Assembly (NCBI GenBank): GCA_037178625.1
Contig: CM074130.1
Location: 1,426,001 to 1,490,000 of the forward strand
DNA: 64,000 nt
Direction of reading: 5' to 3'
Source of the DNA: Skeletonema tropicum
Taxonomy: Eukaryota; Bacillariophyta; Thalassiosirophyceae; Thalassiosirales; Thalassiosiraceae
Of the stretch, positions 1 to 14,016 are shown in pieces. Position 1 is the stretch's first letter, and each line of letters opens with the position of its first letter. A model generated the notes under the pieces. It was given only the letters and a program-made list of their open reading frames with translations. It made no database searches and was not told where the DNA came from. Both the position numbers and the translations under genes were made by a program.

Positions 1-753
1 TATACTTGAGTGCTCTACTTGATTACACCGCCTTGGCAATTGTTGCTAGGCTGCATTTGACCTATTAAACTTTGAATGCTCTACTTGATAATTGATTGTA
101 CCGCCTTGGCACTTGTCGCTAGGCTGCATTTATTCTGCTCATCTCAGTACTGCTTTCATTTGCTTGCTGCTATCTGCAATCCGTTAGGATAGCCTCTTTT
201 CTCTATGGAGATGTTCTTGGTAAAGATAACGTGGTGTGTAATACCTACGTCCCATCTGCTCCTTCTTACTCATGCTCGACACCCCTTTCAGGAAGATATG
301 GCCTGTACGGTTACTCATGTGGCTTACTCTCATTTCTTATTGCCCTTAGGCAGAGATTTTGACTCTTTGTTCCTCGCTTCTTAAGTATCCGTACAAAGGC
401 AGATGTTTGGTGATATCTCTTCTTCTTATCCGCAGTAGACAAATGTAGCTGAATAGCTGAATTACTCTTTACTTGTACATCTAATTTCATTACTGTTCTC
501 TACTCCTTATACCCGTCCGGAGACAGATGTGGCTGTTGCAACTTTCGCTGCTGCTCTTCACTCTTTGCCAGCCCAGAAACAGGCGCTGCAACCTGCAACC
601 GAGGTTACTGCATTTATTTGACTCTCATCATCCGTCTCGAGACAGATAATGCAACCGAAATGGCTGCTCTTATTTGCTCTGACTATCCGTACGGAAACAG
701 ATGTTACAACCGCAGATGCTGCGGTTAAACCTCACATTTATTTGACTCTCATC
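1..753. repeat. Degenerate repeats leading into the satellite
   Basis: Two imperfect copies of a block of about 60 bp lie at about 5-58 and 75-130; both contain a ctctacttgat core and a ccgccttggca core. From 380 to 700 a looser motif (approximately tatccg-n-gacagatgt) recurs near 387, 428, 509, 628 and 686. The phrase catttatttgactctcatc occurs near 611 and 735 and runs directly into the first satellite unit. No credible gene is seen. I infer decayed or divergent satellite at the array edge. Confidence 0.5.
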
Positions 754-3700
754 AGTCTCGTAGCTGATCTGAGAGGTCCAGTGTGGGCTGGCCAGCAGCA
801 CCACATCCTACCAAATCGTACCTATCTTCGTCAATACGTGCATGAGCCGCTTCTAGTGGCCCATTATAGTCGGCGGTGATAGTAAGCAAGCAAATTAGCA
901 CTGCTCGGACGTTTAGCGTGCGTAGAAGCGATGCTACAGTCTCGTAGCTGATCTGAGAGGTCCAGTGTGGGCTGGCCAGCAGCACCACATCCTACCAAAT
1001 CGTACCTATCGTCGTCATTACGCGCATGAGGCGCTTCTAGTGACCCATTATAGTCGGCGGTGATAGTAAGCAAGCATATTAGCACTGCTCGGACGTTTGG
1101 CGTGCGTAGAAGCGATGCTTCAGTCTCGTAGCTGATGCGGGAGGTCCAGTGTGGGCTGGCCAGCAGCACCACATCCTACCAAATCGTACCTATCGTCGTC
1201 GTTACACCTCCGAGCCGCTTCTAGTGGCCCATTATAGTCGGCGGTGATAGTAAGCAAGCATATTAGCACTGCTCGGACGTTTGGCGTGCGTAGAAGCGAT
1301 GCTACAGTCTCGTGGCTGATGTGAGAGGTCCAGTGTGGGCTGGCCAGCAGCACCACATCCTACCAAATCGTACCTATCGTCGTCACTACGTGCATGAGCC
1401 GCTTCTAGTGGCCCATTATAGTCGGCGGTGATAGTAAGCAAGCAAATTAGCACTGCTCGGACGTTTAGCGTGCGTAGAAGCGATGCTACAGTCTCGTAGC
1501 TGATGTGAGAGGTCCAGTGTGGGCTGGCCAGCAGCACCACATCCTACCAAATCGTACCTATCGTCGTCATTACGCGCATGAGCCGCTTCTAGTGACCCAT
1601 TATAGTCGGCGGTGATAGTAAGCAAGCATATTAGCACTGCTCGGACGTTTGGCGTGCGTAGAAGCGATGCTTCAGTCTCGTAGCTGATGCGGGAGGTCCA
1701 GTGTGGGCTGGCCAGCAGCACCACATCCTACCAAATCGTACCTATCGTCGTCGTTACACCTCCGAGCCGCTTCTAGTGGCCCATTATAGTCGGCGGTGAT
1801 AGTAAGCAAGCATATTAGCACTGCTCGGACGTTTAGCGTGCGTAGAAGCGATGCTACAGTCTCGTGGCTGATGTGAGAGGTCCAGTGTGGGCTGGCCAGC
1901 AGCACCACATCCTACCAAATCGTACCTATCGTCGTCACTACGTGCATGAGCCGCTTCTAGTGGCCCATTATAGTCGGCGGTGATAGTAAGCAAGCAAATT
2001 AGCACTGCTCGGACGTTTAGCGTGCGTAGAAGCGATGCTACAGTCTCGTAGCTGATGTGAGAGGTCCAGTGTGGGCTGGCCAGCAGCACCACATCCTACC
2101 AAATCGTACCTATCGTCGTCGTTACACCTCCGAGCCGCTTCTAGTGGCCCATTATAGTCGGCGGTGATAGTAAGCAAGCACATGTCCACTGTTCGGACGT
2201 TTAGCGTGCGTAGAAGCGATGCTACAGTCTCGTAGCTGATGTGAGAGGTCCAGTGTGGGCTGGCCAGCAGCACCACATCCTACCAAATCGTACCTATCGT
2301 CGTCATTACGTGCATGAGCCGCTTCTAGTGGCCCATTATAGTCGGCGGTGATAGTAAGCAAGCATATTAGCACTGCTCGGACGTTTAGCGTGCGTAGAAG
2401 CGATGCTACAGTCTCGTAGCTGATGTGAGAGGTCCAGTGTGGGCTGGCCAGCAGCACCACATCCTACCAAATCGTACCTATCGTCGTCGTTACACCTCCG
2501 AGCCGCTTCTAGTGGCCCATTATAGTCGGCGGTGATAGTAAGCAAGCATATTAGCACTGCTCGGACGTTTAGCGTGCGTAGAAGCGATGCTACAGTCTCG
2601 TAGCTGATCTGAGAGGTCCAGTGTGGGCTGGCCAGCAGCACCACATCCTACCAAATCGTACCTATCGTCGTCATTACGTGCATGAGCCGCTTCTAGTGGC
2701 CCATTATAGTCGGCGGTGATAGTAAGCAAGCATATTAGCACTGCTCGGACGTTTAGCGTGCGTAGAAGCGATGCTACAGTCTCGTAGCTGATGTGAGAGG
2801 TTCAGTGTGGGCTGGCCAGCAGCACCACATCCTACCAAATCGTACCTATCGTCGTCACTACGTGCATGAGGCGCTTCTAGTGGCCCATTATAGTCGGCGG
2901 TGATAGTAAGCAAGCAAATTAGCACTGCTCGGACGTTTAGCGTGCGTAGAAGCGATGCTACAGTCTCGTAGCTGATGTGAGAGGTCCAGCATGGGCTGGC
3001 CAGCAGCACCACATCCTACCAAATCGTACCTATCGTCGTCGTTACACCTCCGAGCCGCTTCTAGTGGCCCATTATAGTCGGCGGTGATAGTAAGCAAGCA
3101 AATTAGCACTGCTCGGACGTTTAGCGTGCGTAGAAGCGATGCTACAGTCACGTAGCTGATCTGAGAGGTCCAGTGTGGGCTGGCCAGCAGCACCACATCC
3201 TACCAAATCGTACCTATCGTCGTCATTACGTGCATGAGCCGCTTCTAGTGGCCCATTATAGTCGGCGGTGATAGTAAGCAAGTACATGTCCACTGCTCGG
3301 ACGTTTAGCGTGCGTAGAAGCGATGCTACAGTCTCGTAGCTGATGTGAGAGGTCCAGTGTGGGCTGGCCAGCAGCACCACATCCTACCAAATCGTACCTA
3401 TCGTCGTCACTACGTGCATGAGCCGCTTCTAGTGGCCCATTATAGTCGGCGGTGATAGTAAGCAAGCACATTAGCACTGCTCGGACGTTTAGCGTGCGTA
3501 GAAGCGATGCTACAGTCTCTTTGCATATCTGAGAGGTCCAGTGTGGGCTGGCCAGCAGCACCACATCCTACCAAATCGTACCTATCGTCGTCGTTACACC
3601 TCCGAGCCGCTTCTAGTGGCCCATTATAGTCGGCGGTGATAGTAAGCAAGCATATTAGCACTGCTCGGACGTTTAGCGTGCGTAGAAGCGATGCTACAGT

Positions 3701-5487
3701 CTCGTAGCTGATGTGAGAGGTTCAGTGTGGGCTGGCCAGCAGCACCACATCCTACCAAATCGTACCTATCGTCGTCATTACGTGCATGAGCCGCTTCCTA
3801 GTGGCCCATTATAGTCGGCGGTGATAGTAAGCAAGCAAATTAGCACTGCTCGGACGTTTAGCGTGCGTAGAAGCGATGCTACAGTCTCGTAGCTGATGTG
3901 AGAGGTCCAGCATGGGCTGGCCAGCAGCACCACATCCTACCAAATCGTACCTATCGTCGTCGTTACACCTCCGAGCCGCTTCTAGTGGCCCATTATAGTC
4001 GGCGGTGATAGTAAGCAAGCAAATTAGCACTGCTCGGACGTTTAGCGTGCGTAGAAGCGATGCTACAGTCACGTAGCTGATCTGAGAGGTCCAGTGTGGG
4101 CTGGCCAGCAGCACCACATCCTACCAAATCGTACCTATCGTCGTCATTACGTGCATGAGCCGCTTCTAGTGGCCCATTATAGTCGGCGGTGATAGTAAGC
4201 AAGTACATGTCCACTGCTCGGACGTTTAGCGTGCGTAGAAGCGATGCTACAGTCTCGTAGCTGATGTGAGAGGTCCAGTGTGGGCTGGCCAGCAGCACCA
4301 CATCCTACCAAATCGTACCTATCGTCGTCACTACGTGCATGAGCCGCTTCTAGTGGCCCATTATAGTCGGCGGTGATAGTAAGCAAGCACATGTCCACTG
4401 CTCGGACGTTTAGCGTGCGTAGAAGCGATGCTACAGTCTCTTTGCATATCTGAGAGGTCCAGTGTGGGCTGGCCAGCAGCACCACATCCTACCAAATCGT
4501 ACCTATCGTCGTCGTTACACCTCCGAGCCGCTTCTAGTGGCCCATTATAGTCGGCGGTGATAGTAAGCAAGCATATTAGCACTGCTCGGACGTTTGGCGT
4601 GCGTAGAAGCGATGCTACAGTCTCGTAGCTGATGTGAGAGGTTCAGTGTGGGCTGGCCAGCAGCACCACATCCTACCAAATCGTACCTATCGTCGTCATT
4701 ACGTGCATGAGCCGCTCCTAGTGGCCCATTATAGTCGGCGGTGATAGTAAGCAAGCATATTAGCACTGCTCGGACGTTTAGCGTGCGTAGAAGCGATGCT
4801 ACAGTCTCGTGGCTGATGTGAGAGGTCCAGTGTGGGTTTGCCAGCAGCACCACATCCTACCAAATCGTACCTACCGTCGTCATTACGTGCATGAGCCGCT
4901 TCTAGTGGCCCATTATAGTCGGCGGTGATAGTAAGCAAGTACATGTCCACTGCTCGGACGTTTGGCGTGCGTAGAAGCGATGCTACAGTCTCGTAGCTGA
5001 TGTGAGAGGTCCAGCATGGGCTGGCCAGCAGCACCACATCCTACCAAATCGTACCTATCGTCGTCGTTACACCTCCGAGCCGCTTCTAGTGGCCCATTAT
5101 AGTCGGCGGTGATAGTAAGCAAGCAAATTAGCACTGCTCGGACGTTTAGCGTGCGTAGAAGCGATGCTACAGTCACGTAGCTGATCTGAGAGGTCCAGTG
5201 TGGGCTGGCCAGCAGCACCACATCCTACCAAATCGTACCTATCGTCGTCATTACGTGCATGAGCCGCTTCTAGTGGCCCATTATAGTCGGCGGTGATAGT
5301 AAGCAAGTACATAGTCCACTGCTCGGACGTTTAGCGTGCGTAGAAGCGATGCTACAGTCTCGTAGCTGATCTGAGAGGTCCAGCATGGGCTGGCCAGCAG
5401 CACCACATCCTACCAAATCGTACCTATCGTCGTCATTACGTGCATGAGCCGCTTCTAGTGGCCCATTATAGTCGGCGGTGATAGTAA
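754..5487. repeat. 184-bp tandem satellite array, about 25.7 copies
   Basis: Units starting agtctcgtagctgat recur every 184 bp from 754 to 5356, followed by a partial copy of about 130 bp. The total offset is 25 x 184 + 2, explained by two single-base insertions (about 3797 and 5312). Each unit carries the 10-bp palindrome GCTGGCCAGC. Copies differ mainly in two windows: a block after tcgtcgtc (tacgtgcatgag versus tacacctccgag) and a block after agcaag (catattagc, caaattagc, cacatgtcc, tacatgtcc). These variants recur with 552-bp (three-unit) periodicity at about 1120-2220 and 921-bp (five-unit) periodicity at about 2888-4730. Short open frames on the minus strand are by-products, because 184 is not a multiple of three. 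The unit length is close to one nucleosome repeat; a centromeric or heterochromatic role is inference only. Confidence 0.95.
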
Positions 5488-5741
5488 GGTAGCACGTCAA
5501 GAAAGCCAAGTTTAACCGTATCATTTATTGCTACTGTTAATACAAAATCAACGTTTTCCGTACTTATTTTTATTGATTTAGTAGCAAGTCATACTTTCGG
5601 TTTGCGCAAGTATATAGCTTTGTTCATTTTCTTTTTTAATGTTAGCTTTTTGATTTGTTTCAGGCCCTTTTTTGGTACTTCGTTAGGTCATTAATTATTT
5701 CTGTTTGTTTCATCAAAGTGCACGACCAAAATCATGATATG

Positions 5742-8700
5742 TCACTGCCCTTTGGTTTTTCCACTTCCTTTTGTTGTTCTCCTTTTATATTTGTTTCTGT
5801 TGGTGTGACGCTTTTGAACTCCTCTTTGTTTTCTCTTTTGTGTTTGCTTCATTTGTTTGCCCTTATTCGGCATTCTTACCTTTGGTTCAAATGCTCCAAG
5901 CTTTGCCAAATACCGGAGATATTCATTGGAGCTTCGTAGTCCCTTTCCGAACTGTCCTACTTTTTCATACGTCAATGACTCTTCCAATTCTGTGTACCTC
6001 TTTTCGAACCATTCCAAATTCTTTTCGAGACAGAAATCCTTTTCTATATCCCCCATTGCAATTAATCTCACCTCTTCCTCCATTTGTCTTCTTATACTTG
6101 GATGGGAAAGTAATGCAGGAGATTCAATTTCCGTTGCATCTTCCTCGTGCCCAAACAACTCTAGCAAGTTTGAGCCCAAAGGAGTAGGGATCATGTATCT
6201 GCCAACTTGACGAGGAAGATTGTTCCTCCGCTGACTAGGCGGCCGTGGCGGGCGTAAAGCCACACCATTTTCGTCACATAACATTACATAGCCTCGATCG
6301 ACAATATTACTAACATGAACAGCCATGCTTGCGTCAGTTCCAATTCGGTTCAAATCCATCAATCGAATAAGCTCATGTTCTTGCAGGAAGCGAGGTGGCA
6401 TTGTTTTCTTCTCCTCAATACCTGATTTTTCAAGCTTTAGCCGCTGCCCTTCTCGCAACAAATCCTTCTCAACTCTTCCCTGGACTGCCCCAACATCACG
6501 CAGCACCCACCGACAAGCATCAGCAAATCCAAGCGAATCTACAGTGACTAATTCTATCTCAAACTCTGCTTCGTCGCTGTCCGACAATGCCAATAACGCT
6601 TTCGTACGAGTGATTTGTAGGTCATTGTGTAGGCTACCAAGAAAGTTGCGGACCACATACTCATATAGTCTCCACGCATTACCTCCGCCTACATTTCCCC
6701 TGTTTGCAGCTTTTAGAGGGGTTATAGGGGGGTGATCTCCGCAATCTTTACCTCGATTAGGAGGCTTGTTCGTCTTCCTCGTTCGTAGTAAATACGAGGC
6801 AGTCTTCCCCCACTCTTCACTACTACAGTGCTGTCGCAACAACGAGCGGGCGTCAAAGCCATTTGGATCGTAACGTGTTGTCTCAGTACGTGGATAAGAT
6901 ATGAACCCAGCAGAATAGAGCTTTTCAGCAACAGACATAACAGATTTCGGCGACATTCCCATTGCTTTAGAACCTGCTTCCAATAAAGCGACAGTATTGA
7001 GACCAACAGGTGGCTTGATGCTTTCTGAAGTTTGAGAAACTTTTTTGACAACGATATCTGCACCTCTACCCCTTTCAATTAATTCTCGCGCGGCGTTCTG
7101 ACTGAAAGTGGCATTCTCCTCATAGGCATCATCTCTTTTACTCCTTGTGTCCATCACAGCGTCGTTTGTTGGGACTCTCCATTTCAGCACGTAGCTGTTG
7201 CCATCTGGAAGCTGTGCATGTAAATCTACTTTCCAATATCTTTCTGGTACAAACGCTTCTATCTCTCGTAGTCTATCCACACAAAAAGACAATGCTGGAG
7301 TTTGACAAGGCCCATATGATATCATTTTCGTCGAGCTTGAGAATCTCTGCCTCGCTAGGCCAACACACCTCCATGTAAGGAGCCTATACAAAGCAGAGAG
7401 AAAGGTCGTAACAAATGAGAAAGTGAACAATGCAAATCAATTCGTCCCAGCTCCACGAGAAATAAGAGATACCCACCTTGTGAGTGACACTCCTATTCTT
7501 AGATCGAGTTCTTGTCTAGCGTCAACACTCCTTGAGAGCTCTGGATCGGGTTCTTCAAGAGAGCTGAAAGCATCTTGAAGGGCCTTGGGAGTTATAGCTG
7601 AGAACTTTGCTCTATGAACACGCGTTGCATCAGTAGATGCTTTGCTGTATATGGCTCTGCGACAAACGGCGATGACTTCGTGGGCTATGTTTTCTCCCTC
7701 CGCGTCACAGTCTAACCAGAGAATTAGATGTTCACTATCACCTGCTAACGCTTTGAGGTGGTCAATAACTCTTAATTTCGAAGTAGTCGACTCTTCTTTT
7801 TTTGTAACAGGCAACGTGAAATAGTCACGAGGGTTGGTGCGTTGATCTTTGTTTTGAGAATCAAAGTCAAAGCCAAGAGAATAAATGTGCCCAACTACTG
7901 ATGTAACCCTAACTAGGCATCTTTGTCCATTGGCAGGTGCAAATTTATCAGTCGTGAATTCATAAACAGGCAGAGCTCTTGATATTCCTCTTCGCTGATT
8001 TGCACCTCTTTTGCCACTGAGGGAGTCGGCAATCGCCTTTGCTATCGAAGGCTTTTCTGCTACCATGAGGATCTTCATTCGATTGTCTTTTGAATCTTTT
8101 GATGATGAAGTCATCAGTAGTGGAGCAATATCTTGAAACTCGAATAGTCCTATGTACTCAAATCTCAGTCTTTGGCTACGTCGCGATAAAGCATCGAGGA
8201 CAGTTTTGACGGGCATGTCACCAATAGTAGATCCATTGATGTCAGATACAGCTCTCACCAATTCTTTACTAGGCAATCGAATCCGTTTGGATGTGACCAA
8301 CTCATCTTCTACTTGATTTTGCTCATGAGCTAGATTTTGTTCATCAGTATCAAAATTATCATCATTCGGTGCAATATCAGTGATATCAAAATCTAGATCA
8401 TCGCTGTAAGCATCATCTTCGAAATCGCGATAAGATGTATCTTTACCTGCACCATAACTGCCCTCCGCAGCCGTTCTTCTAAAATCTTGCTGACTGAATT
8501 CCTCGTTGTGCACATCGTCATCTGACTCACTATCTACTTGAGTAGAAAATGATCCTGCATTTATCTTCATATCCTCCTCAAGAGATCTGGCTTGATTTAT
8601 ATGAGCTTGACCTCGAAGCCATAATGGAATCGAGTTGCTTTGTCCTGCATCTGTAAGAAGATCTACTAAACCAGAAGCAAGTCTCGCACTCTTTGCATCC

Positions 8701-10159
8701 AGGAATGTCAGAGCTTCGCCGGATTTTCCTGCTCGTCCCGTCCTACCACATCGATGCGTATACGTGTCGATATCCCTTGGTGGATCTGCTTGAATCACGA
8801 GTCCTATTGAAGATAGGTCTAATCCACGAGCAGCTACATCTGTAGCGACCAGCAGCGAAACTTTTTGAGACTTGAAGTCTTTCATTGCTCTGTTGCGTTC
8901 TGACTGTGGTTTATCCCCATGAATTACACGCACCTGACGTTTTTTACCACCTAGCTTGTTAGATATTGCTTTGCCAAACAGTTCTGCGCCATCCTTTGTA
9001 TTTGTAAAGACGATGACACTGGTCTGATCCATTTTGAGATTGGGATTTGCCCAAAATTGTTCTACATTCTTGATGACTGCAGTAACTTTGGGGTTTTGTT
9101 TGCCTTTAGCATAGATATCGACCCATTCAAATCTTTGCTTGATTAAAGATTGTGTGCTACCCACTTTACCCACGCTTACAAAATAGTAATTTTGATTGAG
9201 GAAGTCTGCAGCTAACCTTTGAACTCCCAGCGGAAACGTTGCACTGCACAAGACGCTCTGCCTATTGTTGTTACGGGAGAAGGACCTAGCAATCCTGGTC
9301 AAATCCTTTTCAAATCCCATGTCTAATAAACGATCGGCCTCATCAATTACAAGATAATCAATGGAGTGCAGGGATAGCTTTCTTTCATCAAGGAATTGGC
9401 ATATTCTCCCAGGAGTACCTACCAATACATTGCAGCCTGGCAGCGACTGTCTCTGCTGACGAGTATCAGATCCACCAGTAGCTGGTAGAAAGAGTGTTAT
9501 GGTTGAGCTTTCTTTTTGATCGAGACAGACAATCAACAACAGACACAACCGCAATGGTCGTCATTCTTACCGAGAGAAATAGAAAAACCACAATCTGACT
9601 TCAAAAAACGATTCAACACATTAGCAGTTTGCACAGCGAGTTCTCTTGTCGGCGAAATGATCAAAGCAGTTGGTGAACCCATTGATTTGTTTGGAAAGCT
9701 TTTGCCGCTTGTCAACAGCTTATTAAGTAGTGGCAGTCCAAACATCAATGTTTTCCCGGAGCCTGTCGCACTCGAGGCCATGACGTCATACCGCTCAAAC
9801 AAAAGAGGCAATGAGTAAGCTTGGATTGGCGTTGGTGCAGTAATGTTCATATCCGAAGATTGCAATGTTTTAGTGATGCGGCTATCAAGAATGGAGCTCG
9901 CAAAATCTTTCAGAGGGAGTGTGCCATGATCTGAAGGTGACACTTCTACTGAAGCCTTCATTGATGAAAGTGACGACCGACATAACCTACTGATACCACC
10001 ATGACGTTGATGGCATATAAATGATGATGAAGTTGCCAAAGAGGTGATATGCGAGGACTGTAGCTGTCGCGTGTAGCGGGCAAACGCTAGCGTTGGCTGA
10101 AACATCATTCCAAGAAATATCGAAATGATTATGATGGCCATGCTTGATAATATTATCAT
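5742..10159 (-). CDS. DEAD-box RNA helicase fused to TOP3-beta-type DNA/RNA topoisomerase
   Basis: Three exons (10159-9571, 9511-7477, 7383-5742) with GT-AG introns of 59 and 93 bp give 1421 residues. Residues 1-30 are a hydrophobic signal ending PTLA-FARY, a possible diatom plastid presequence. The helicase half has a Q motif (TPIQ), Walker A (ATGSGKT), PTRELA, TPGR, DEAD at 253-256, SAT, ATDVAARGLDL and HRCGRTGRAG. An acidic linker follows (about 515-605). The topoisomerase starts at MKILMVAEKPS (675), with the TOPRIM metal site LWLDCDAEGEN near 797-803, ISYGPCQTP near 895 and the active-site Tyr of ISYPRTET at about 1038. SYGPCQTP and LWLDCD are typical of TOP3-beta, which also acts on RNA. 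The last 45 residues are Lys/Arg-rich; no zinc fingers are seen. Helicase and TOPRIM parts lie in one uninterrupted exon, so the fusion is not an artefact of joining exons. The second acceptor (aaaaag) is unusual. Confidence 0.88.
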
Positions 10160-10691: not shown

Positions 10692-11219
10692 ATGAAGCCT
10701 ATCGCGTTCGCTCTAGCTATCTTTGTTCATGCCGCGGTGGCATTTGCATTTGTTGTTCCGGTGCCCATGTCAGCGCCAGCACGCAAAGGCAGTTGCAGCA
10801 ATCTCGACGCAACGCGTCGTGACGTTATCTCTGAAATCTCTGGGCTTGTGGCGGCAGCTGCTGTGACAGCAGTCCAGCCGCCAGCATATGCGGAGCCTGT
10901 AGTCGTGGAACCACTAAAAGGCACACCTCAAGATAACGAAATTGTCAAGGAACAACGCACAGTTACCGATAAACTTGACATCAACAATGCTCCCGTTGCC
11001 GACTACATGCAGTTCCCGGGGCTCTACCCGTCTATCGGGGGTAAGATAGCAAATGGGGGACCGTACGGTTCGGTGAAAGATGTGTACAAATTGAAGGCCC
11101 TATCCAGTGACGACATTAAGCAGATTAAGAAATATGAGAGCTACCTTACCGCCACTCCAGCCACGGGTCTTGATACGTTACGTGGAAGGGACCCTTATCG
11201 CAGGTCTTTCAATCTGTAA
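10692..11219 (+). CDS. psbU: Photosystem II extrinsic 12 kDa protein PsbU
   Basis: This 175-residue protein is the lumenal PsbU subunit that stabilises the oxygen-evolving complex. The mature part contains KLDINNAPVADYMQFPGLYP and a helix-hairpin-helix-like region, both characteristic of the family. The N-terminus is three-part: an ER signal peptide (1-17) followed by FAFVVP, a plastid transit stretch, then a thylakoid signal with a twin arginine (TRRDVIS), an Ala-rich core and an AYA cleavage site near residue 67. The mature chain would be about 108 residues, slightly longer than in red algae because of an Arg-rich C-terminal tail. In cyanobacteria and red algae PsbU lacks this three-part leader, so the leader fits a secondary plastid. 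The start ATG follows a C/A-rich leader. No intron is needed. Confidence 0.93.
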   Translation: MKPIAFALAIFVHAAVAFAFVVPVPMSAPARKGSCSNLDATRRDVISEISGLVAAAAVTAVQPPAYAEPVVVEPLKGTPQDNEIVKEQRTVTDKLDINNAPVADYMQFPGLYPSIGGKIANGGPYGSVKDVYKLKALSSDDIKQIKKYESYLTATPATGLDTLRGRDPYRRSFNL

Positions 11220-12929: not shown

Positions 12930-14016
12930 ATGACGAGGAAGTTACTCCCCATATGCATCAGCGTGGCGGCGTCAATGTTCGCCGTCACCGCATTCCAGCA
13001 GACGCCCTACAAAACTACAAACTCCATCAACAGCACATTCGTCTTCATCTCGCCTATCCATCGGCAAGGTCTTTGGAGACAACACCACGAAGGAACAACA
13101 ACTCCCAAAAGACGTGAAAGATGCCATATCCAAATGTCGAGGGGCGGTTCAAAAGGCGTTAGAGAATAGATTATCTCGTATGGATGTAGAGATGCCTGTA
13201 GGTGCTAATTTCGGCGTTGAGAAGAAGAAAGCCTCCTCGCGTAAGAGTAGTTTGGCATCGTTGACTGATGATGATTCGTCGACGGAAGGGCTAACTATGG
13301 AGAAACTTGACACATCGAATAGAGAATTGGCACGTTTGTTCGTTGAGATGTTTCAACCTCTGGGAGGGCAGCATATTAGTGCAGTATTTAACGACGAGAA
13401 TCTTGCTGACGAAGCTCGTAAATTATGGAGTGGAGATCTAAGCGTGGAATGTAACATTGTTGCTATTGATCGAAAGTTGAAACGTTCTAGGGGTGGCTTA
13501 ATGGGTGGTAAGAAGAAGAAGAAGAAGGCTATGGGGTTTGCATCAAAAATGGCAGAGGAATTAGAGGACGATGGGTCATCAGGTCCATTCGTGTTACCTG
13601 AAGACACAGAGGTTGCTCTATTTGTTGCTCCCGGCCCGAAGGAATTGATTGCCATTGAACGAATATGCAACGAAGTGGGAATGGGAACGTGCGTCATTCT
13701 TCTCAATGCTAGACTGTCTCGTGTAGAGAAATATGTAAGTGACGACGCAAGAAAATTATTTGAGGGGTTTGAACCAGTTTGGTTCCTGGGAGCAGCTTCA
13801 CAGGAAAATGCTCCTGGATGCTTGATGCATCGAGCCTATCCAGGCAAGTGGCTGCTGGCGAGGAAACCCAAGGTTGGTGCTCCAAAGACAATTGCTACTC
13901 AGGACGACATGTTTACAGGAGAGGAGTGCGCTGTTGCATACCAAAGTATTGAGGTATCCGAAGCAGAGAAGACCGCAGAAAAGCTAGCGAGCAATGTTGC
14001 AGAGTGGTTCAAATAA
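12930..14016 (+). CDS. DUF1995 plastid protein (LPA3-like), one frame correction
   Basis: The N-terminus MTRKLLPICISVAASMFAV followed by TAFQQTP is a typical diatom plastid presequence. The body contains LPKDVKDAISKCRGAVQKAL near the domain start, and later FVAPGPKELIAIERI and GMGTCVILLNARLS, which match the DUF1995 family; plant LPA3, needed for photosystem II assembly, belongs to it. A lysine-rich run (GGKKKKKK) lies in the middle. Presequence and body are in different frames. Removing one base between about 13000 and 13075 gives a continuous 361-residue protein; the exact site cannot be fixed. The GTG at 13114 is not the likely start. The gene converges with ELP3, with only about 60 bp between stops. 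Function beyond the family is inferred. Confidence 0.7.

Follow-up and report, generated by a model that had tools for sequence, protein, structure and literature searches.

Animal topoisomerase 3-beta (TOP3B) works on mRNA, where it is aided by a zinc finger and an RGG box (PMC12585913, consulted in part, as were the other articles cited here by number, except PMC12787238). In the fly, the helicase DDX5/p68 associates with Top3-beta-TDRD3, and its authors suggested that RNA unwinding falls to the helicase and relief of the stress to the topoisomerase (PMC6251927); in human cells, TOP3B acts together with DDX5 on R-loops (review PMC10969213). The manner in which helicase and TOP3-beta cooperate on RNA has stayed open, because the animal proteins are separate and held by a scaffold. 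Here we present the analysis of a 64,000-nucleotide stretch of the diatom Skeletonema tropicum (assembly GCA_037178625.1, contig CM074130.1, positions 1,426,001 to 1,490,000; hereafter the window), in which one gene encodes a DEAD-box helicase and a TOP3-beta-type topoisomerase in a single chain. No paper on a DEAD-box/TOP3 fusion was found in the literature searched, which consisted of listings and the beginnings of abstracts and had most subscription papers outside it. The word topoisomerase is absent from the main text of a review of dinoflagellate RNA-binding proteins (PMC12787238), and the available part of PMC7710908, which lists dinoflagellate topoisomerases, mentions no helicase joint.

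As predicted from its sequence, the product is a single nucleus-encoded chain that unites a Ded1/DDX3-derived helicase and part of its C-terminal extension with a TOP3-beta-like topoisomerase lacking the zinc ribbon, the parts following one another as presequence, complete DEAD-box helicase, 173-residue linker, TOP3-beta-type core and basic tail (Table 1). The ATG at 10159 lies immediately 3' of an in-frame stop. Exon 2 by itself takes in the linker, TOPRIM and the larger part of the helicase, and joining the halves hence requires no splicing choice; the initial annotation had started this exon at 9511, which is 30 bases early (9481 is correct), and had the remaining borders right. In 20,000 letter shuffles the linker DNA was never open, the number of stops in the other five frames is 8 to 24, and the GC content of the linker by codon position 1/2/3 (0.55, 0.36, 0.29) follows the same downward trend as the flanking coding parts (0.53, 0.42, 0.37 and 0.54, 0.44, 0.35) at a somewhat lower level. 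This is a genuine fused gene, and we regard the point as practically settled; the single joined chain proposed in the initial annotation is upheld by the frame, by the domains and by the relatives that carry both halves.

These relatives were gathered by three protein searches, of which the best 120 matches each (of 2132, 722 and 6379) yielded 307 proteins, most of them without an organism name; a protein was taken as fused where BLAST aligned more than 150 residues of each half. Both halves were found in 88 of the 307, and two kinds can be told apart. In kind A (52 of 307), to which the Skeletonema gene belongs, the gap between the aligned halves measures 160-243 residues, and in kind B (36 of 307) it ranges from -2 to 101, mostly 28-34; the divide at 120 linker residues was chosen after the values had been seen, no value lying between 101 and 160. 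The kind-A proteins that carry a name come from the diatoms Thalassiosira exigua, T. profunda, Cylindrotheca closterium, Seminavis robusta, Amphora coffeaeformis, a Bacillariaceae metagenome-assembled genome and Entomoneis paludosa (by taxonomic identifier), a model labelled Psemu1, which we take to be Pseudo-nitzschia, and the red algae Rhodosorus marinus (by taxonomic identifier) and Porphyridium purpureum, a spread to be read with the fact that no search was aimed at other red algae, cryptophytes, haptophytes or brown algae. Named members of kind B are Hydra vulgaris (on a contig of 52.8 Mb) and the dinoflagellates Symbiodinium, Durusdinium and Effrenium; P0066 and others without an organism name group with Hydra, and P0144, labelled EG_transcript, is presumably Euglena. 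Names of MMETSP or transcript style occur in kind A (P0039, P0047, P0052) and in kind B (P0066, P0123, P0130, P0144), so that the joint is present in apparently RNA-based assemblies, and the database name of P0041, 'superfamily II DNA/RNA helicase/DNA topoisomerase IA', indicates that annotation programs recognise both parts. A joined frame confined to this one diatom had been named beforehand as evidence against the fusion; many diatoms carry it. The architecture is not peculiar to diatoms: it is also found in two red algae, and a second, independent version with another helicase exists. Two kind-A models, P0034 and P0041, extend into an extra C-terminal part, which in P0041 matches NFACT-R_1 (31.1 bits, cut-off 29.8) and is perhaps a merged neighbour gene or a further fusion.

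All four Pfam domains of the fusion protein score above their cut-offs (Table 1). The closest solved structures are human TOP3B over residues 666-1243 (9e-99) and Vasa over residues 71-485 (3.5e-74); the topoisomerase half scores 335 bits with TOP3B against 230 with TOP3A, and the helicase half 254 bits with Vasa and 233 with DDX3X against 187 with DDX17. Catalytic motifs in both halves and an active-site Tyr (ISYPRTET) in exon 3 had been read from the letters at the outset, and both are confirmed: the Tyr codon occupies 6896-6894, all helicase motifs scored are present in the Skeletonema protein (Q/I, Ia, Ib, II (DEAD), III, V, VI), and eleven motif patterns across both halves each occur in 28 to 32 of the 32 near-full kind-A sequences, Skeletonema included, with AEKPS, DxDxEGEN and SYPRTET in all 32. 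Equally well founded is the description of the tail as basic without being rich in RGG: its last 60 residues hold 21 K+R and 2 D+E in Skeletonema, and across the 29 of 52 kind-A proteins for which it was determined, the net charge over the last 60 residues is +11 to +20, with an RGG count of at most 2 in each. The zinc ribbon PF23546 was not found in the Skeletonema fusion protein by Pfam scan; CxxC pairs after the active Tyr number 0 in this protein and in 28 of the 29 kind-A proteins, 1 in the remaining one, and 7 or 8 in 7 canonical TOP3-beta proteins.

Each half was also analysed phylogenetically. The helicase tree (73 rows) places kind A beside DDX3/RH37 (support 96) and kind B inside the DDX5/Dbp2 group (support 96); P0197, a helicase-only model of Cyclotella atomus, was counted as kind A in it, and P0150 and P0152 were dropped for a stretched match; only two named DDX5-type rows remained. 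Against solved structures in the PDB, the Hydra helicase half scores 343 bits with DBP2 and 333 with DDX17 versus 255 with DDX3X, while that of Porphyridium is nearly even (DDX3X 238, DDX17 230 bits). On the topoisomerase side, a 77-row tree held the Skeletonema fusion, 18 of the 37 kind-A rows that qualified, all 20 of kind B, 36 of the 99 rows without a long helicase match (some of the 99 being shortened diatom models), and the genome's own TOP3-beta and TOP3-alpha. Four rows labelled as unfused fell inside the fused clades, P0056 and P0050 in A and P0151 and P0071 in B, and these may be fragments or real losses. With the four left out, a 44-row tree drawn from the 77 recovered A as one clade (100/99), B as one clade (100/98), and A, B and the unfused copies as one group apart from canonical TOP3-beta (100/100); the nearest kin of kind B are unfused copies (a 14-row group, 100/100), not kind A. 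A single origin of all DEAD-TOP3 fusions was rejected by approximately unbiased tests on quick trees, with p 1.8e-65 and a log-likelihood 158 lower for the helicase, and with p 0.00012 and a log-likelihood 56 lower for the topoisomerase, where the four rows inside the two clades were joined to the constrained group after the 77-row tree had been seen. Judging from these trees, the fusion very probably arose twice, independently.

Taken together, kind A, kind B and the unfused copies (P0057, P0059, P0072, P0077, P0079, P0083, P0085, P0087, P0111) look like a third eukaryotic TOP3 subfamily. Its unfused members are named or labelled Diplonema, Rhum, which we take to be a diplonemid, Amoebophrya, Cymbomonas and EG_transcript, others being without a name, and the zinc ribbon was not found in the four of them scanned. 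The TOP3-beta type assigned by the initial annotation needs a qualification: the core is indeed nearest TOP3B by the bit scores given above, but it falls into a subfamily of its own that lacks the zinc ribbon and is not an ordinary TOP3-beta. An annexin domain (PF00191) stands beside the topoisomerase domains in P0072 (labelled Rhum). In both trees Hydra and its unnamed kin (P0074, P0066, P0062, P0063) are sister to the dinoflagellate-type P0068, P0073, P0122, P0123 and P0130; these sister fusions lie nested among alveolate-type unfused copies, a hint that lateral transfer took place with alveolates on one side and an ancestor of Hydra on the other.

The linker of kind A is conserved in blocks. 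Across the 32 near-full sequences, 28 of its 173 columns are at least 90% identical, a QDFR block is present in 42 of 44 kind-A sequences and an FEY.G.F-like block in 39 of 44, and this conservation reaches from red algae to diatoms. The QDFR block aligns with FGGRDFR behind the plant DDX3-type core, which places the joint downstream of part of the Ded1-type extension; the nearest named unfused helicases among the matches listed are likewise of the Ded1/DDX3 type (plant RH37, RH52, RH11), the sister group in the tree, and share with kind A an F..[QR]DFR block behind the core. These helicases are separate proteins, however, and the element that precedes TOPRIM in kind A was met in 0 of 82 checked. 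A profile of this pre-TOPRIM element, built from kind A, was run with a threshold of E <0.05. It matched 3 of 23 unfused subfamily members, directly ahead of TOPRIM, and 0 of 60 canonical TOP3-beta, 0 of 16 kind-B, 0 of 82 DEAD helicase and 0 of 460 shuffled sequences; as a mark of shared ancestry the helical element is suggestive only. Pfam gave no match on the pre-TOPRIM stretch, queried with an approximate copy of its sequence. AlphaFold was run on the relative P0002 (1197 residues, helicase start missing; 28 aligned sequences) and returned a mean predicted local distance difference test (pLDDT) of 74.5 and a predicted template modelling score of 0.63. In this model the linker middle (280-367) is disordered, with pLDDT <50 at 280-320 and 330-367, the helical stretch 371-430 before TOPRIM is confident (block means 78-90), the topoisomerase core is mostly confident and the tail is disordered. 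Foldseek with the P0002 model gave human TOP3B as best matches, with a TM score of 0.92 by target length.

Compared with the TOP3B/TDRD3/DDX5 system, the fusion shares the topoisomerase fold and the principle of a DEAD-box helicase beside TOP3-beta, but there the helicase is separate and bridged by TDRD3 or RNA, whereas here there is one chain; TOP3B has a zinc ribbon and an RGG tail, and the fusion has neither, carrying instead a DDX3-type helicase and an organelle-like presequence. Kind B corresponds to the TOP3B-DDX5 pair in a single chain. In both kinds the DEAD-box helicase stands N-terminal to the topoisomerase, which is drawn from one and the same TOP3-beta-like subfamily; kind B differs in its DDX5/Dbp2-like helicase, short linker and separate origin, in having no plastid-like presequence in the members read, and in RGG repeats, which occur in 11 of 13 members measured (1 to 16 each). 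Reverse gyrase, an enzyme of archaea and bacteria, offers another likeness, a helicase-like part N-terminal to a type IA topoisomerase in one chain, although this part falls outside the true DEAD-box RNA helicases of the DDX3 or DDX5 type. Reverse gyrases align across the whole P0002 model in Foldseek, but with a root-mean-square deviation above 20. Identity with reverse gyrase was rejected for the three fused relatives scanned, for which TIGR01054 scores 82 (P0001), 115 (P0074) and 51 (P0065) against a cut-off of 471.7, the match being confined to the topoisomerase half.

Diatom plastid presequences follow a pattern with [A,G,S,C]^F. A rule comprising a signal-peptide-like start, this motif and then a basic stretch, with thresholds set by us, was scored on 27 of 32 kind-A N-termini (5 unscored), and 16 of the 27 fit it against 2.4 expected from shuffles, the Skeletonema LA^FARY among them; the PTLA-FARY leader, which had been read as hinting at the plastid, stands up as a pattern. 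The divergent neighbour of the fusion gene encodes PsbU, an extrinsic protein of photosystem II, with 533 bases between the two ATGs. Both the N-terminal pattern and this neighbour favour the plastid, and the fusion protein is probably located in the plastid of this diatom. Against such a destination it has to be weighed that the rule was written after the sequences had been seen, that 11 of the 27 scored N-termini lie outside it, and that P0003, among the 16 fits, is doubtful. The enzyme could instead be mitochondrial, dually targeted or cytosolic in many species, with a plastid form in some diatoms only, and plant organelle topoisomerases with dual targeting are known (PMC4166229). The fit of the Skeletonema N-terminus and the excess of fits over shuffles speak against this alternative, which we consider unlikely, though not negligibly so.

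A plastid enzyme of this type would occupy the same place beside gyrase as plastid TopA (TOP1, type IA), which is of bacterial origin and, unlike the fusion, has no helicase. The plastids of the red alga C. merolae contain gyrase and a cyanobacterial type IA TOP1 (PMC3914683), and a type IA TOP1 is given for all eight plants and algae tabulated in PMC4166229, two red algae included; in view of both records, a loss of TopA here would be a real change. Own-genome scans covered an assembly of 78.4 Mb in 125 contigs. Three type IA genes were found, namely the fusion, a canonical TOP3-beta elsewhere in the genome (zinc ribbon 44.3 bits, cut-off 27; RGG tail) and one that we take to be TOP3-alpha-like, with an RGG tail. 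The bacterial TopA model (TIGR01051, topA_bact) gave 5 matches in the genome, all at these three TOP3 genes, the best at 164.8 bits and that on the exon 3 part of the fusion gene at 103.1 bits versus a cut-off of 456.4; in control genomes the model matched in 14 of 14 and above cut-off in 10 of 14. Gyrase A is encoded as well; a single exon piece of its gene scores 757 bits (cut-off 902) and covers almost all of the model beyond position 125.

Should the plastid possess gyrase but lack TopA, the likely targets of the fusion are R-loops and negative supercoils from transcription. Our preferred reading, held with about even confidence, is of a helicase-coupled topoisomerase in an organelle, here probably the plastid, where it clears R-loops and tangles. 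The protein would be directed to an organelle, most likely the plastid in this diatom; the helicase would spend ATP on opening RNA duplexes or RNA-DNA hybrids, the topoisomerase would cut, pass and reseal the strands so exposed, and the basic tail would stand in for the RGG box by binding nucleic acid. In sum, the enzyme would remove R-loops and negative supercoils behind RNA polymerase and would untangle RNA, work that in other plastids is shared by bacterial-type TopA with gyrase. Kind A has a different DEAD-box helicase from kind B, but its parts stand in the same order and its topoisomerase is of the same subfamily, which points to coupling of unwinding to strand passage; that such fusions arose separately suggests a benefit from having both activities in a single chain.

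Several observations weigh against this proposal. Location and enzyme chemistry are both deduced from sequence. The fly p68 association is lost with RNase and runs via TDRD3, and so gives no proof of direct coupling (PMC6251927). The zinc finger and RGG box that aid animal TOP3B on RNA are missing in kind A. Since assembly completeness is not stated, the TopA absence could be an assembly gap; the plastid destination of gyrase A is only putative; and the type IA TOP1 given for both red algae in the table of PMC4166229 means that fusion and TopA may coexist. The P0002 model, in which the linker middle is disordered, sets no geometry between the halves.

The halves might instead work independently, the fusion merely sharing one promoter and one targeting sequence between them: a disordered linker middle is compatible with mere tethering, and a single presequence suffices for both. 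We hold this to be rather improbable, given two separate fusions to the same topoisomerase subfamily, one of them using a helicase reported as a TOP3-beta partner, and linker blocks that are kept in red algae and diatoms alike. Proteins akin to Ded1/DDX3 are RNA helicases. This kinship and the mRNA activity of animal TOP3B (PMC12585913) leave some room for an enzyme acting on RNA only, which would untangle plastid mRNA or rRNA in translation or ribosome assembly and leave DNA untouched; there is, however, neither RGG box nor zinc ribbon, and with no TopA match beyond the TOP3 genes a DNA task is open, so that such a restricted role appears distinctly improbable. Least of all can the reading have merged two adjacent genes with a separate topoisomerase start, a notion for which a Met just before TOPRIM (residue 665, not 675 as initially annotated) and, in 15 of 43 kind-A sequences, a Met somewhere among the 12 residues that precede LMVAEKPS might be adduced, but which is all but excluded by halves joined without stop or intron, by the shuffles, by the same joint in 52 of the 307 fetched proteins, some with transcript labels, and by a Met at the exact place in 1 of the 43 kind-A sequences scored (44 examined), solely that of Skeletonema tropicum itself.

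Table 1 Features of the helicase-topoisomerase gene and of its surroundings, in window positions.
Feature	Position	Strand	Evidence
Fusion gene, 3 exons, 1411 residues	10159-5742	minus	splice joints, both introns GT-AG
Exon 1: presequence and first DEAD part (Q motif, motifs I, Ia)	9571..10159	minus	splice joint
Intron 1, 89 nt	9482..9570	minus	GT-AG
Exon 2: remaining helicase, linker, TOPRIM, single open frame	7477..9481	minus	
Intron 2, 93 nt	7384..7476	minus	GT-AG
Exon 3: topoisomerase core, tail, stop codon	5742..7383	minus	
Presequence (plastid-like), residues 1-70: hydrophobic start, PTLA^FARY, basic stretch	9950..10159	minus	
DEAD domain, residues 110-283 (span takes in intron 1)	9222..9832	minus	PF00270, 149.9 bits
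Helicase_C, residues 346-448	8727..9035	minus	PF00271, 96.6 bits
Linker, residues 493-665: QDFR block, then an acidic middle and a helical part leading up to TOPRIM	8076..8594	minus	
TOPRIM, residues 668-809 (AEKPS, DCDAEGEN)	7644..8069	minus	PF01751, 42 bits
Type IA topoisomerase core, Topoisom_bac, residues 842-1233 (span takes in intron 2)	6279..7547	minus	PF01131, 257.4 bits
Codon of active-site Tyr 1028 (ISYPRTET)	6894..6896	minus	
Basic tail, about residues 1365-1411	5745..5885	minus	
PsbU	10692-11216	plus	
DUF1995 protein	12934-14013	plus	116.9 bits
Tandem array, 184-base unit, 25.7 copies	753-5488		93% matches

As regards the surroundings, a promoter region shared by PsbU and the fusion gene is possible; a DUF1995 protein is encoded on the same strand as PsbU, and the 184-base tandem array has its end some 250 bases past the fusion gene's stop codon.

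Overall, our broadest reading, held tentatively and at less than even confidence, is that eukaryotes may on two occasions have assembled an ATP-coupled helicase-topoisomerase that serves RNA and R-loops, a plastid Ded1 form in diatoms and red algae and a DDX5 form in dinoflagellates and Hydra, both being working counterparts of reverse gyrase drawn from a little-known third TOP3 subfamily, with the diatom form replacing plastid TopA. The independent fusions are evolutionary evidence for the joint use of helicase and TOP3-beta action, and two natural single-chain versions would make the coupling testable by inactivating one active site at a time. If the plastid location is true, the gene would show by what means negative supercoils and R-loops are relaxed in a diatom plastid that lacks TopA, and would place an RNA-capable eukaryotic topoisomerase inside an organelle of bacterial descent.

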